From contig JAVKGW010000004.1 of NCBI GenBank assembly GCA_031460175.1, positions 1 through 59,302 on the forward strand: 59,302 nt of DNA, read 5' to 3'. This document shows positions 33,766-39,093 of the stretch, piece after piece (within the stretch, counting starts at the first letter, position 1; each line of letters begins with the position of its first letter). This DNA comes from Armatimonadota bacterium (lineage in GTDB: Bacteria; Sysuimicrobiota; Sysuimicrobiia; Sysuimicrobiales; Sysuimicrobiaceae). The translations under genes were made by a program, and so were the position numbers. The notes beneath the pieces are model-generated. The model ran no database searches and was not told the origin of the DNA. It saw only the letters and a list, made by a program, of their open reading frames with translations.

Positions 33766-34605
33766 GTGCTGCGGCGCCTGTCTTTAGCCTCCCTCACGGT
33801 AGCCGTCCTCGGCCTGGGTGAGGCGGGGAGCGCGGTGGCGGAGGACCTCGCGCGGGCAGGGGTCCGGGTGGTGGGCTGGGATCCCCAGCCGAAGCGTCTT
33901 CCCGAAGGGGTGCGCCTTGCGGAGGACCCTCACGCCGCGGTGGAGGACGCGGAGGTGATCCTGGTGCTCACCACGCCCTCCGCCTCCCTGGCGGTGGCCT
34001 CGGCGGTGGGCGAGCGGCTGCGGCCGGGCCAGGTGTACGCGGACTGCAACAGTACCTCCCCGGCCGTAAAGCGGCAGGTGGCCCGCCTCCTGGAATCCTC
34101 CGGGGCCCTGTTCGCGGACGTCGCGCTGATGGCGCCCGTCCCCGGGCGGGGCGTCCGGACCCCGGCCCTGGCCAGCGGGCCCGGCGCGCAGGCGTTGGCG
34201 GATCGGCTCGCGCCCCTGGGAATGCCGGTGCGGGTCCTGGGGCCGGAGGTGGGCTTGGCGGCCGCCCGCAAACTGGTGCGCAGCGTGTTCACGAAGGGGC
34301 TCGCGGCCTCCGTCCTGGAGGCCCTGGTCGCGGCCCGGGCCCTCGGTTGCGAGAGGGAGGTCTTGGAGGACATCTCCAAGACCCTGGAAGAGGCCGACGC
34401 GGCCCTCCTCCACCGCTTGGTGGAGGGGACACGCCAGCACGCGGCGCGGCGGGCGGACGAGATGCGGGCCGCCTGCGAACTGCTGGACGAGCTCGGGGTT
34501 CCCGCCCGGGTCGCCCGGGCCTGCGTGGCGTGGCTGGAGGACCTGGCGGGGTGGACCCGGGAGGGATCACCGAGCCGGATCCGCGGCAACCGCCCGGATG
34601 GTTGA
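33766..34605 (+). CDS. NAD(P)-dependent dehydrogenase, 6PGDH-like N-terminus with DUF1932-type C-terminus
   Basis: 279 residues. A Rossmann domain opens with VAVLGLGEAGSAVAEDLARA (near 12-31) and has VILVLTTPSASL and the YADCNSTSP motif of the beta-hydroxyacid dehydrogenase family. It is followed by a helical C-terminal domain (LAAARKLVRSVFTKGLAASV) like DUF1932 proteins. It probably oxidises or reduces a hydroxyacid; the substrate is unknown. The GTG start lies exactly at the predicted transcription start, so the mRNA is probably leaderless. Its stop overlaps the -35 box of the next promoter. Confidence 0.82.
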   Translation: MLRRLSLASLTVAVLGLGEAGSAVAEDLARAGVRVVGWDPQPKRLPEGVRLAEDPHAAVEDAEVILVLTTPSASLAVASAVGERLRPGQVYADCNSTSPAVKRQVARLLESSGALFADVALMAPVPGRGVRTPALASGPGAQALADRLAPLGMPVRVLGPEVGLAAARKLVRSVFTKGLAASVLEALVAARALGCEREVLEDISKTLEEADAALLHRLVEGTRQHAARRADEMRAACELLDELGVPARVARACVAWLEDLAGWTREGSPSRIRGNRPDG

Positions 34606-34630
34606 CGGGCAAGACCCGAAGGCTTACCCT
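34602..34630 (+). promoter_or_regulatory. promoter of fluoride-riboswitch unit 1
   Basis: TTGACG (34602-34607) overlaps the stop of the preceding gene. After a 17-bp spacer comes TACCCT (34625-34630). Predicted start near 34637 puts the aptamer at the very 5' end of the RNA, as expected. Confidence 0.6.
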
Positions 34631-34651
34631 GAGGAGGACGGACTCGAATAT

Positions 34652-34706
34652 CGGGCGATGGAGCTCGCCCTACCTGCCTGGCCCGGACCAGGCTGATGGC
34701 TCCTAC
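34652..34706 (+). promoter_or_regulatory. fluoride riboswitch aptamer (crcB motif), copy 1
   Basis: P1 is GGGCG/CGCCC around the invariant GATGG, P3 is GCCTGG/CCAGGC, and the 3' segment is CTGATGGCTCCTAC, whose CTCC re-pairs with the GGAG of the P1 loop as a pseudoknot. These are the hallmark features of the crcB motif. The joining segment is TACC instead of the common AAAC seen in copy 2, a deviation that could alter affinity. The aptamer's last strand is shared with the terminator below. Confidence 0.88.
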
Positions 34707-34731
34707 TTGTAAAGCAGTGGGGGCCTTTTTT
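34698..34731 (+). terminator. intrinsic terminator, expression platform of fluoride riboswitch 1
   Basis: GGCTCCTACT (34698-34707) pairs over ten positions, with three G-U pairs, with AGTGGGGGCC (34716-34725), and T6 follows. The 5' arm includes the aptamer's pseudoknot strand, so fluoride binding should prevent the terminator and turn expression on. Confidence 0.88.
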
Positions 34732-34738
34732 CTTCAAC

Positions 34739-35143
34739 ATGGGCCGGACCCTGACCCTTCTCCTGGCGGGCGAAGACCTCACCCGCCTCGCCGCGGACCT
34801 GGCCCGCCGGGGCGACGGGCCCCTGGAAGCAGGCCTTGTGTGGCTCCTCGCCGAGGGAGCCCGACACTACGCCCGTGACCAGCACCGATGGCATCGCATG
34901 GAGGCGGAGCCAGCCACCGCGGACGAGGCAGAACGGTTGGAGCTCCAGCGGCGGGAAGCCGCCGCACATCTGCTTTCCATGCGCGCCCGCGTGCTCCAAA
35001 CCGAGCTGGAACGGGACACGCTGAGGTCCCAGGTGGCCGCCCTGGAGGAGGAGTACCGCGCGCTCCGAGACCGCCTCTTTGCCCTCCAGCAGGAGCGCCG
35101 GGTCCTGGTAGAGGCCTTGCGGGAACGGGGAATTCGACCGTGA
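34739..35143 (+). CDS. fluoride-riboswitch-controlled small coiled-coil-like protein 1
   Basis: 134 residues, unrecognised. The N-terminal third (GRTLTLLLAGEDLTRLAADL) is a compact mixed segment. The rest is one long charged helix (residues about 55-130) with heptad spacing, e.g. LERDTLRSQVAALEEEYRAL. There is no signal peptide or membrane helix, so it is probably cytoplasmic. The ATG lies 8 nt after the riboswitch T run; GTGGGGG in the terminator's 3' arm may serve as ribosome site when the terminator is not formed. It overlaps the next gene by GTGA. Confidence 0.7.
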   Translation: MGRTLTLLLAGEDLTRLAADLARRGDGPLEAGLVWLLAEGARHYARDQHRWHRMEAEPATADEAERLELQRREAAAHLLSMRARVLQTELERDTLRSQVAALEEEYRALRDRLFALQQERRVLVEALRERGIRP

Positions 35144-35583
35144 CGGACGTGCTGGCCACCGTGCACCTGCTCCTGGAGGAGGATCTCTGGGCAGAGGTGG
35201 AATCGGTCCTCCGGGCAGAGGGCTGGCGGGAGGAGGAGGGGCTGCGGATCCTGTTGGGATACGGCGCCGCGGTGCACCTGGACGGACCCTCCGAAGACCC
35301 CCTGCGGGCGCTGCGGACCGCCCGGGCTGAGCTCGCTACCCTCCGGCACCGGGCGTACCTCGCGGACGAGGCCGTGCGCGGGCTGCGGATGAACCTCACG
35401 GGTCTGGAGGCATCCCTTCGCCAGGCCCGGCGATCACTAGACCGGCTGGAGCGGGAGATCCGCGTGCTGCGCGATCGTGCCCGGGAGGCGGGGGTGAACG
35501 CGCCGGATTCCCCGCGGATCTCGGCCTCCGATGCGCTGCGCAGGCGACTGCGGGCCCTGTTCGGATACCGCAACACACCGTGA
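35140..35583 (+). CDS. fluoride-riboswitch-controlled small coiled-coil-like protein 2
   Basis: 147 residues, unrecognised. Residues 1-55 look globular (MTDVLATVHLLLEEDLWAEV). Residues 60-120 form a predicted coiled coil (LASLRQARRS-like heptads in LTGLEASLRQARRSLDRLER), and a basic end follows (ALRRRLRALFGYRNTP). The GTG overlaps the stop of gene 1, so the two are translationally coupled and may form a hetero-coiled-coil. No enzymatic motif is seen. The basic tail could contact nucleic acid, which is only an inference. Confidence 0.7.
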   Translation: MTDVLATVHLLLEEDLWAEVESVLRAEGWREEEGLRILLGYGAAVHLDGPSEDPLRALRTARAELATLRHRAYLADEAVRGLRMNLTGLEASLRQARRSLDRLEREIRVLRDRAREAGVNAPDSPRISASDALRRRLRALFGYRNTP

Positions 35584-35627: not shown

Positions 35628-35655
35628 TTGACAGCGCCCCCGCCTCCTGTAGAAT
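35628..35655 (+). promoter_or_regulatory. promoter of fluoride-riboswitch unit 2
   Basis: Consensus TTGACA (35628-35633), 16-bp spacer, TAGAAT (35650-35655). Expected start near 35662, two bases before the aptamer. The MutS-like genes therefore have their own fluoride-gated transcript. Confidence 0.8.
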
Positions 35656-35663
35656 GAGGTCGA

Positions 35664-35714
35664 GGGCGATGGAGCCCGCCCAAACCGCCTCGATGAGAGG
35701 CTGATGGCTCCTAC
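35664..35714 (+). promoter_or_regulatory. fluoride riboswitch aptamer (crcB motif), copy 2
   Basis: It is very close to the well-studied Thermotoga form. P1 is GGGCG/CGCCC with GATGG, the linker is AAACC, P3 is GCCTC/GAGGC, and CTGATGGCTCCTACC provides the pseudoknot strand. All elements are in order without insertion. With promoter and terminator at the right spacing, this is a textbook fluoride ON switch. Confidence 0.95.
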
Positions 35715-35736
35715 CCAGATCGGGTAGGGGCCTTTT
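35706..35736 (+). terminator. intrinsic terminator, expression platform of fluoride riboswitch 2
   Basis: GGCTCCTACCC (35706-35716) pairs with GGGTAGGGGCC (35722-35732) over 11 bp around an AGATC loop and is followed by TTTT. The 5' arm is the aptamer's 3' strand, so ligand binding and termination exclude each other. Confidence 0.93.
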
Positions 35737-35870: not shown

Positions 35871-37436
35871 ATGGAAGGCCCCGTCCACCCGCCCAGCATC
35901 CTCTTCCCACCCGACGAACCACGGCCTGCGCTTTCCACGGATCCCCCGCCCTGCGTTTCCGATCTCTTCCTGGACCAGGTGGTGGACGCCGTCCTCGCGG
36001 GTCGGGAAGCGTACGATCTCAAACCTTTCTTTTACACCCCGCTCCGGAGCCCCTCCGCGGTGATGTACCGTCAGCAGGTCATGCGGGACCTGGAGGACCC
36101 TCACGTGTATGCCCGGATCGCCAGCTTCGCCGCCGCCATGCAGGCCGTCCGGGAACACCTCGCGCACGCGGAGACGACGTTCTATGTGCGGCAGCGGGAA
36201 CGCTGGTTTCTGGACGCCGCTTACCGGTACTGTGAGGCCATCCAGCAACTCGCGGAGGATCTGTCCCGGGCGCGGATCCGGTCCGCGGGCCTGGTGGCCT
36301 TCCGCGACTACCTGGAGCGCTCCGTCGCCTCGGCGGCGTTCTGGCAGCTCCACGCGGAGGCCGTGCGGCTCCTGCAGGAGCTCTCTGCGATCCGGTACAC
36401 CGTCCTCATCCGGGGGCTGCGGGTGGAGGTCCGGCCCTACGCCGGAGAACCGGACTACAGTGCGGAAATCGTGGCCGCGTTCGAACGTTTCCGTCAGGCG
36501 GATGTCCCGGGATCCGCCTTCACCTTCCGGGACTCTCCGGAGATGAATCACGTGGAGGCGCAGATCCTGGACGGCGTGGCCCGTCTCCATCCTGAAGTCT
36601 TCTCCCGTCTTGCCGCTTTCCGTCGGGCCCACCGCTCCTTCCCCGACCCGGTGGTCGTCGCCTTCGACCGCGAAGTGCAGTTCTATCTCTCCTATCTCGC
36701 GTACATTGCCCCCCTTCAGCAGGCGGGCCTCCCCTTCTGCTACCCCGAGATCACCGAGAAGCCGGGTCGAATCTACGCTCGAAATTGTTACGATCTGGCC
36801 CTGGCCCAGAAGCTCGTCCGGGAGGGGACCGTTCCCGTATGCAACGACTTCGAGCTCACCGGTCCCGAGCGCATGCTGGTGGTGACCGGTTCCAATCAGG
36901 GCGGGAAGACCACCTTCGCCCGGAGCATCGGACAGCTGCACCATCTCGCGGCCCTCGGGTGCCCCGTACCCGGTACACAGGCTCGATTGCTCCTCACCGA
37001 CCGGATCTTCACGCACTTCGAACGAGGGGAGCCCGCGCTGCACCAGACGGGCAAGCTGGAGGACGACCTCCTCCGAATCCGCAGGATCCTCGAGAACGCC
37101 ACGCCCCACAGTCTCCTCATCCTCAACGAGCCCTTCTCCTCCACCTCCCTGCACGACGCCCTTTTCCTGAGCGAGCGGATCGCCACCGCGGTCCTGGACC
37201 GGGGTGCCCTCTGCGTGTGGGTCACCTTCCTGGACGAGCTGGCCTCCCTCAACGCGCAGACGGTGAGCATGGTGGCCACCGTGGATCCTCAGAACCCCGA
37301 GGTGCGGACCTTCCGCATCGAGCGGCGGCCCGCGGATGGCCTCGCATACGCCGTCGCTCTGGCGCGGAAGCACCGCCTCACCGAGGACCAGATCCGGGAA
37401 CGCCTCCGACATGAGAGCCCGGCTCCTCTATCCTGA
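35871..37436 (+). CDS. MutS-like ABC ATPase 1, under fluoride riboswitch
   Basis: 521 residues. Helical clamp/core-like region: LFLDQVVDAVLAGREAYDLK near 32-51, FFYTPLRS, then EMNHVEAQILDG. A MutS-type ATPase follows: Walker A GSNQGGKTTF at 340-349 and Walker B LLILNEPFSSTSLHDA near 416-430, with Asn in place of the Asp before the catalytic Glu. No mismatch-binding domain with an FxE motif and no Smr nuclease is present, so it is neither MutS1 nor MutS2. Start ATG 35871 has GAAGGGGG upstream and precedes the conserved ILFP; GTG 35769 is the alternative. It overlaps its partner by 26 nt. Confidence 0.87.
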   Translation: MEGPVHPPSILFPPDEPRPALSTDPPPCVSDLFLDQVVDAVLAGREAYDLKPFFYTPLRSPSAVMYRQQVMRDLEDPHVYARIASFAAAMQAVREHLAHAETTFYVRQRERWFLDAAYRYCEAIQQLAEDLSRARIRSAGLVAFRDYLERSVASAAFWQLHAEAVRLLQELSAIRYTVLIRGLRVEVRPYAGEPDYSAEIVAAFERFRQADVPGSAFTFRDSPEMNHVEAQILDGVARLHPEVFSRLAAFRRAHRSFPDPVVVAFDREVQFYLSYLAYIAPLQQAGLPFCYPEITEKPGRIYARNCYDLALAQKLVREGTVPVCNDFELTGPERMLVVTGSNQGGKTTFARSIGQLHHLAALGCPVPGTQARLLLTDRIFTHFERGEPALHQTGKLEDDLLRIRRILENATPHSLLILNEPFSSTSLHDALFLSERIATAVLDRGALCVWVTFLDELASLNAQTVSMVATVDPQNPEVRTFRIERRPADGLAYAVALARKHRLTEDQIRERLRHESPAPLS

Positions 37437-39093
37437 TGTGGATTTTGACTGGATGCGGGCGCAGCGGGCGGTGGCAGACCGGACCGCGCGGCGCACGGGC
37501 TACCGTTCGCGCCGTGCCCCGGAGGCCGATCCCCGCACCGGCCTCCCCCCGAACGCGGAGGACCTGGAGCGGGACCTCCACCTCGCTCCCCTCCTTTCTG
37601 CCATGGCGCGGGGAGACGACTGGGTCCACGAGGTGAGCCGCAGGATCCTGTTGGAAGGGACACAGGGAGATCCCTCGGTCATCCGGTACCGCCAGGACAT
37701 CCTGCAGGACTGCCTGGAGCATCCAGCGGTGGTCCGCCGCCTCTACGCCCTCACCGTGGAAGCCGCGGAACGGACCCGGGGACATTTCCTCGGCGTGCTC
37801 TCCCGCTTCCCCGACTGGGTTCTGCGCGAGGCCGTGGAGACCCTGGAGCGGCTCCTCCCCCTACTGCGGGAGTTGCGGGAGATCGCGGAGCAGCATGGAC
37901 CCCAGCTCCGCTCGGAGGGATGGACCCGGTTCTTCACCGCCCTTCGGGAGAACCTGAGCGCGACGTACCTGGAAGAGGTCCAAGGCCACCTGCACGAGCT
38001 CCGATTCCCTCGTGGAGTGCTGCTGAGCGCACAGCTCGGAACGGCCAACAAGAGCACCGGCTACCGCCTCCACCGGGTGCCCGGCGGACACCGGGCTGTC
38101 CGGAATTGGTGGAGGAGCCTTTGGGGGGAGGCCTCACCCGTCTACCGGTTCGAGGTCTCCCCCCGGGACGAGGCCGGGGCCCAGACGCTGCAGGAGCTCC
38201 GCAACCGGGGCATCGCCTCTGCCGCGGACGCTCTGGGCCGGGCCGCGGACCACGTGCGGGACTTCTTCTGTATGCTGCGGGCGGAGCTCGCCTTCTACGT
38301 AGGCTGCCTCAACCTCCACGAAGCGCTCACCGACCGGGACGTCCCCTCCTGCTTCCCGCAGCCCGCTTCCGTTGCCGAGCGGCGGCTGTCCTTCCGGGGT
38401 CTGCATGATGCGGTGCTCGTCCTGACGGAGGACCGGCCGGTGGTCCCCAACGACCTGGAGGCGGATGGCAAAAGCCTAATATTCATCACGGGGCCCAACT
38501 CGGGGGGGAAGACGACCTTCCTCCGCAGCCTCGGCATCGCGCAGCTCCTGATGCAGGCCGGGATCTTCGTGCCTGCACGATCTTTCACCGCAAGCCTCTG
38601 CATCGGGCTCTTCACGCACTTCAAGCGGGAGGAGGACATCGCGCTGGAACGGGGGAAGCTCGATGAGGAACTCGCCCGCATGAGTATCATCGTGGATCAC
38701 ATCCGCCCCGGCGCGGTTTTGCTCTGCAACGAGTCCTTTTCCGCCACCAATGAACGGGAGGGATCAGAGATCGCCCGCCAGGTCCTCCGGGCCCTCACGG
38801 AGCTGGGTGTCCGAACCTACTTCGTCACCCACTTCTACGACCTCGTCCGTTCCTTCCGCGACCGGGGGCTGAGTCACGTCCTGTTCCTGCGGGCGGAGCG
38901 GCTTCCGGACGGGCGCCGGACCTATCGGATCCTCCCCGGGGAGCCGCTCCCCACCAGCCACGGGGCAGACGTCTACCACCGGATCTTCGGAACCTCCCGC
39001 ATGGAGGACGGATCCTCTCCGTGGGGCACAACCCCGGGCACGGTTCCACCGTCGCCGCGCTACTCGGATGCGGAATCCCGGGGGGCACCCTGA
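37411..39093 (+). CDS. MutS-like ABC ATPase 2, under fluoride riboswitch
   Basis: 560 residues, paralogous to its upstream partner. A long helical N-terminal region (VIRYRQDILQDCLEHPAVVR near 90-109) leads to Walker A GPNSGGKTTFLRS at 361-373, a signature-like EEDIALERGKLDEEL, Walker B AVLLCNESFSATNEREG near 435-451 (Asn again before Glu) and the switch FVTHFYD at 471-477. No nuclease or mismatch-recognition motif is seen. The 26-nt overlap suggests co-translational assembly of a heterodimer. MutS-family ATPases act as DNA or ribosome clamps; what this pair senses is unknown. Its 3' end overlaps rarA tail to tail by 34 bp. Confidence 0.87.
   Translation: MRARLLYPDVDFDWMRAQRAVADRTARRTGYRSRRAPEADPRTGLPPNAEDLERDLHLAPLLSAMARGDDWVHEVSRRILLEGTQGDPSVIRYRQDILQDCLEHPAVVRRLYALTVEAAERTRGHFLGVLSRFPDWVLREAVETLERLLPLLRELREIAEQHGPQLRSEGWTRFFTALRENLSATYLEEVQGHLHELRFPRGVLLSAQLGTANKSTGYRLHRVPGGHRAVRNWWRSLWGEASPVYRFEVSPRDEAGAQTLQELRNRGIASAADALGRAADHVRDFFCMLRAELAFYVGCLNLHEALTDRDVPSCFPQPASVAERRLSFRGLHDAVLVLTEDRPVVPNDLEADGKSLIFITGPNSGGKTTFLRSLGIAQLLMQAGIFVPARSFTASLCIGLFTHFKREEDIALERGKLDEELARMSIIVDHIRPGAVLLCNESFSATNEREGSEIARQVLRALTELGVRTYFVTHFYDLVRSFRDRGLSHVLFLRAERLPDGRRTYRILPGEPLPTSHGADVYHRIFGTSRMEDGSSPWGTTPGTVPPSPRYSDAESRGAP

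Follow-up and report, generated by a model that had tools for sequence, protein, structure and literature searches.

A fluoride riboswitch-controlled pair of paralogous proteins, predicted to form a stalked RHH-like heterodimer, in the phylum Sysuimicrobiota

The fluoride defences known so far rely chiefly on two exporters. Resistance operons under the control of the fluoride (crcB) riboswitch have been described in which a terminator-type riboswitch precedes a multi-gene stress operon (PMC5533749), an arrangement shared by the loci considered here, where the Usp and pyrophosphatase partners of those operons also recur (Usp at several loci, an H+-pyrophosphatase in genome G041). The operon content differs, however, in that crcB is absent from most of the present genomes and two proteins, here termed P1 and P2, are found instead together with a DUF6062 protein. 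As early as 2010, fluoride riboswitches (crcB motif) were reported in association with mutS genes (Weinberg 2010, PMC2864571), which they precede here as well; the part of that report available to us makes no mention of P1-P2-like proteins, which in our data occur independently of the MutS pair in six of 14 genomes. With regard to protein architecture, TraY of the F plasmid contains a whole ribbon-helix-helix (RHH) dimer fold within one polypeptide (PMC12117103), and PcfF of pCF10 consists of an N-terminal RHH domain and a helical stalk at the C-terminus, through which a partner protein is recruited (PMC6514445). No description of P1-P2-like proteins, or of the DUF6062 operon context, was found in the literature.

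The window, that is, the whole 59,302-nucleotide stretch of DNA that was analysed, carries P1 and P2 behind a leader on the plus strand whose anatomy is that of a transcriptional riboswitch. A sigma-70-type promoter (TTGACG-N17-TACCCT, 34602-34630) overlaps the stop codon (TGA) of the preceding gene, as a preliminary description of this DNA had noted. The site matches eight of 12 consensus positions and falls below the threshold of the consensus scan, but 13 of 14 homologous leaders keep an equivalent site in the corresponding position, and no more than 1% of shuffles reach its score. The crcB-type aptamer of that description was likewise borne out, with a match to RF01734 at 34645-34712 (48.1 bits against a gathering threshold of 34, E 2.8e-10) that covers the whole model, positions 1-64. 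An intrinsic terminator (34698-34731), composed of a hairpin (34698-34725; 10-pair stem, -17.1 kcal/mol) and the T6 tract noted earlier, overlaps the 3' end of the aptamer, such that the 3' strand CUCCUAC (GGCUCCUAC) is common to both structures. A hairpin that has the aptamer 3' strand in common is present in all 14 homologous leaders, followed by at least four T in ten of them. The riboswitch had been called the second of its kind, whereas in map order it is the upstream member of a tandem pair, the partner aptamer lying at 35656-35720; a third fluoride riboswitch in the genome of the window (G000) precedes crcB. Fluoride control of P1-P2 is a prediction that is supported as well as sequence allows.

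P1 (34739-35143, plus strand, 134 aa) and P2 (35140-35583, plus strand, 147 aa) are, as first described, two coupled genes whose overlap reads GTGA. Comparison with a congener gives dN/dS ratios of 0.22 for P1 and 0.39 for P2, indicating that both are real genes under purifying selection. In profile searches neither protein reaches the Pfam or NCBIfam cut-offs; matches to coiled-coil Pfam families, to DARPins (P2 profile) and to GCN4-like sequences (P1 profile) were set aside as composition noise. The two profiles align with one another end to end (probability 96.5, E 8.9e-10), and P1 and P2 are therefore paralogues. In one genome (G040, L023:2452-3315) they are naturally fused in a single frame as one protein. 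Invariant residues are mostly found in the C-terminal part of each protein, predicted to be a helical stalk (R72, E73, M81, R82 and R84 of P1; R62, E64, L65, R69, R71 and N85 of P2).

In a set of 43 genomes from the phylum, 14 are matched by the P2 profile with E-values below 1e-40, and the P1 profile matches the same 14 plus a P1-like fragment in G010, a genome that has no P2. Two further genomes, G007 and G020, gave weak P1 matches (E about 0.009) that were not confirmed by profile and were left out. P1 and P2 are neighbours in all 14 genomes, and in every one a fluoride riboswitch lies directly upstream on the same strand, 13 of these having been found by the scan of the phylum and the remaining one, in G012, being weak (22 bits, below threshold). 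The gap between riboswitch and P1-P2 is 22-44 nucleotides at 13 loci and 197 nucleotides in G041. An arrangement that recurs in 14 genomes is far beyond chance. The genomes of the phylum are related, and the counts are consequently not independent. The proposal that P1 and P2 are fluoride-response proteins is strongly supported by the presence of the riboswitch at all 14 loci, and widespread homologues unlinked to fluoride, the outcome named beforehand as refuting it, did not come to light. The family seems, on the contrary, to be restricted to a single phylum, apparently Sysuimicrobiota/CSP1-3, with many hot-spring members: a pattern scan of 84,980 genomes, resting on two conserved peptides that distant relatives could escape, returned six loci, each of those that could be matched lying in one of the present genomes, and no relatives outside the phylum, and a search of plasmids with P2 gave no match.

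The genes that most often accompany P1-P2 are those for a DUF6062 protein, which is Cys-rich with two CxxC/CxxH-like blocks, and for a major-facilitator (MFS) transporter, present at most P1-P2 loci. Ten genomes of the phylum pass the DUF6062 search; nine of them have P1-P2 nearby, and in the tenth (G029) DUF6062 has a fluoride riboswitch of its own, directly upstream (L098 6803-7685). A second DUF6062-like protein of G029 is encoded in its MutS-pair operon (L096 8525-9991). DUF6062 may thus respond to fluoride as a family independently of P1-P2. In the genome of the window DUF6062 has been lost and P1-P2 have been kept, in the presence of both CrcB and a CLC, and the riboswitch-crcB locus of the same genome (L037 8736-10771) adjoins DUF190 and an MFS gene whose relatives in other genomes follow P1-P2. 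Other genes in these neighbourhoods include the H+-translocating pyrophosphatase of G041, which lies downstream of P1-P2-DUF6062 on the same strand (L026 6202-8556). Further fluoride riboswitches of the phylum precede a MoxR-type AAA ATPase and two more genes in family f5 (L090 7928-10250, L095 12313-14634 and L096 5692-8009), and weak ones precede genes resembling respiratory-complex-type membrane subunits in G027 and G029 (L095 14799-16685; L097 8622-10528).

In the family of the window (f1), a set of genes for an exchanger, a Usp protein and two MutS-like ATPases is found behind a second fluoride riboswitch. In the window this second unit starts from a promoter (TTGACA-N16-TAGAAT, 35628-35655, plus strand) that matches 11 of 12 consensus positions, followed by an aptamer and overlapping terminator (35656-35736; aptamer 55.6 bits, terminator at 35706-35736 with an 11-pair stem and TTTT). 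The two ATPase genes lie downstream on the same strand, at 35871-37436 (MutS_V, E 1.2e-16; start chosen by comparison with homologues) and at 37411-39093 (MutS_V, E 2.4e-19; found in 11 of the 43 genomes). MutS domain V is the sole profile match of the pair, the N-terminal halves matching nothing. As a test of a lysine 5,6-aminomutase reactivase (KamC-like) role for the pair, an aminomutase was sought in the genome of the window and none was found, although control genomes gave none either. Across the 43 genomes, P1-P2 and the MutS pair occur together in eight, P1-P2 only in six and the pair only in three. Co-occurrence with P1-P2 has a Fisher P value of 0.002 in the case of the MutS pair and of 3e-5 in that of DUF6062, both ignoring relatedness, and DUF6062 and the MFS transporter are closer companions of P1-P2 than is the MutS pair.

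CrcB was found in three of the 43 genomes and CLC in six, by searches that match in most control genomes, and homologues of both are absent from 12 of the 14 P1-P2 genomes. Among riboswitch-bearing genomes there is a trend towards mutual exclusion of P1-P2 and exporters (P 0.05), with coexistence of CrcB and P1-P2 in G000 and G035. The sole f1 genome that lacks P1-P2, G038, is informative in this respect. The flanks of its locus (L087 7614-10095) share about 76% DNA identity with those of G039, yet P1-P2 are deleted, DUF6062 is cut to residues 75-239, and the position of exchanger-Usp-MutS-MutS in G039 is taken by a riboswitch-crcB unit. Judged from this comparison, riboswitch-crcB appears to have replaced the exchanger-Usp-MutS-MutS set naturally at this locus.

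An AlphaFold model of the natural fusion (pLDDT 83.5, pTM 0.73), built from a block-diagonal alignment of 19 rows, two of them identical, predicts that each half is a strand-helix-helix unit followed by a long helix. The predicted segments are a strand at residues 2-9 with helices at 10-22 and 28-55 in the first half, and a strand at 144-151 with helices at 153-166 and 170-185 in the second, mostly with pLDDT above 90. When P2 is modelled alone no strand is formed (pTM 0.51). This is in line with a strand that depends on its partner, but the depth of the alignment also differs from that of the fusion. The best structural matches of the fusion in Foldseek are chains of the F-plasmid relaxosome (best probability 0.96, TMt 0.66) and VirC2, with weak E-values of 0.1 to 0.9. 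The relaxosome chains are presumably TraY, which they fit by length. Modelled by itself, P2 gives weak matches to the RHH proteins Arc, CdbA, Reg576 and AtaR. The pTM of 0.73 and the single-chain RHH matches, weak as their E-values are, suggest that the two strands may pair in an antiparallel ribbon, and P1-P2 are likely to form a heterodimer of RHH-like fold that bears a coiled-coil stalk. The earlier statement that the proteins have no known domains hence holds for curated sequence profiles, but not for the predicted fold. The likeness to TraY and VirC2 is limited to the prediction of the fusion as a single-chain RHH-like unit; the matched chains have no long stalk, they are conjugation proteins with DNA-binding ribbons, and no sequence similarity to them was detected. 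The layout of N-terminal RHH and C-terminal stalk is also that of PcfF, which is, however, a homodimer that binds oriT, whereas P1-P2 are predicted to be heterodimeric and their RHH unit is acidic.

We infer from these features that P1 and P2 would act as a stalked, heterodimeric adaptor of RHH type in a lineage-specific fluoride-resistance module, a reading to which we would assign a probability of about 0.5. According to this proposal, and to the known mechanism of RF01734 riboswitches, fluoride binding would stabilise the aptamer and the overlapping terminator could not form, such that P1-P2 are transcribed. The N-terminal strands and helices of both proteins would then combine into one RHH-type heterodimer with a coiled-coil stalk, which would serve mainly as a scaffold or adaptor through its conserved stalk rather than as a DNA binder. 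Candidate partners of the stalk are DUF6062, itself rich in Cys, and the module's transporters in the membrane (MFS and Na/H exchanger), and the module as a whole may stand in for the Fluc/CLC-F exporters in the phylum, the operon having been trimmed to P1-P2 alone in the genome of the window. That genome, in which P1-P2 persist without DUF6062 and beside CrcB and a CLC, counts against the proposal. A broader version, in which P1-P2, DUF6062 and the MFS transporter constitute an undescribed fluoride-resistance system that replaces Fluc/CLC-F in most of the phylum, with an RHH heterodimer that has given up DNA binding as its scaffold, is put forward as a tentative extension.

Alternatively, P1-P2 could represent a heterodimeric RHH transcription regulator that adds a second layer of control to the fluoride genes, with the ribbon on an operator and the stalk providing cooperativity or sensing. 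Such a role would be in keeping with the predicted fold and its matches to DNA-binding RHH proteins, with the precedent of PcfF, which binds DNA and has the same order of RHH domain and stalk (PMC6514445), and with the sub-threshold matches of single P2 members to curated RHH profiles (RHH_5, E 0.0022; FitA-like RHH, E 0.044), none of which rises above the cut-off. In f1, moreover, where the ribbon residues are Thr/His and not Glu, a DNA-binding role is conceivable. The RHH-like unit is nonetheless net acidic in most, indeed nearly all, members, and the P1 ribbon carries Glu-Glu in G002, G003 and G005. An acidic P1 ribbon is often accompanied by Arg in the ribbon of P2 (4/6 vs 0/7, P 0.02, a comparison confounded by relatedness), a pattern that fits side-by-side pairing. 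No obvious shared operator is seen in the promoter spacers of the homologous leaders, and these promoters already carry a fluoride switch of their own. A regulatory role is thus considered rather unlikely, and the acidic RHH-like unit, together with the location of the invariant residues mostly in the stalk, would favour a protein-binding over a DNA-binding role.

It is improbable that P1 and P2 are general coiled-coil proteins of the envelope or protein-stress response, similar to PspA/Vipp1 and induced as fluoride perturbs metabolism. One P2 member weakly matches PspA_IM30 (E 0.0013) and P2 alone weakly matches Vipp1 filaments, but such matches are typical of long helices and stand beside many unrelated coiled-coil matches, and neither an N-terminal strand-helix-helix unit nor paralogous pairing is a feature of PspA. 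Most improbable is the idea of the preliminary description that P1-P2 serve the MutS-like ATPases as structural or adaptor partners, which draws on the adjacency of two fluoride-switched units in f1 and on their co-occurrence but does not stand as a general rule. The ATPases are neighbours and not obligate partners, given six P1-P2 genomes without the pair (five of which have a completeness of 97% or more), three pair genomes without P1-P2, separate promoters and riboswitches in the window, and one to four intervening genes at all examined f1 loci except that of G000.

P1-P2 belong to a lineage where most riboswitch-bearing genomes are without CrcB and CLC, and where the fluoride switch accompanies both of these new protein families with no exception. 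That crcB has been swapped in naturally in one species hints at functions that overlap. If the proposal is correct, P1, P2 and their companions would be genetically testable candidates for a further route of fluoride survival, and in the heterodimer an RHH-like fold would have been put to an unusual, non-regulatory use.
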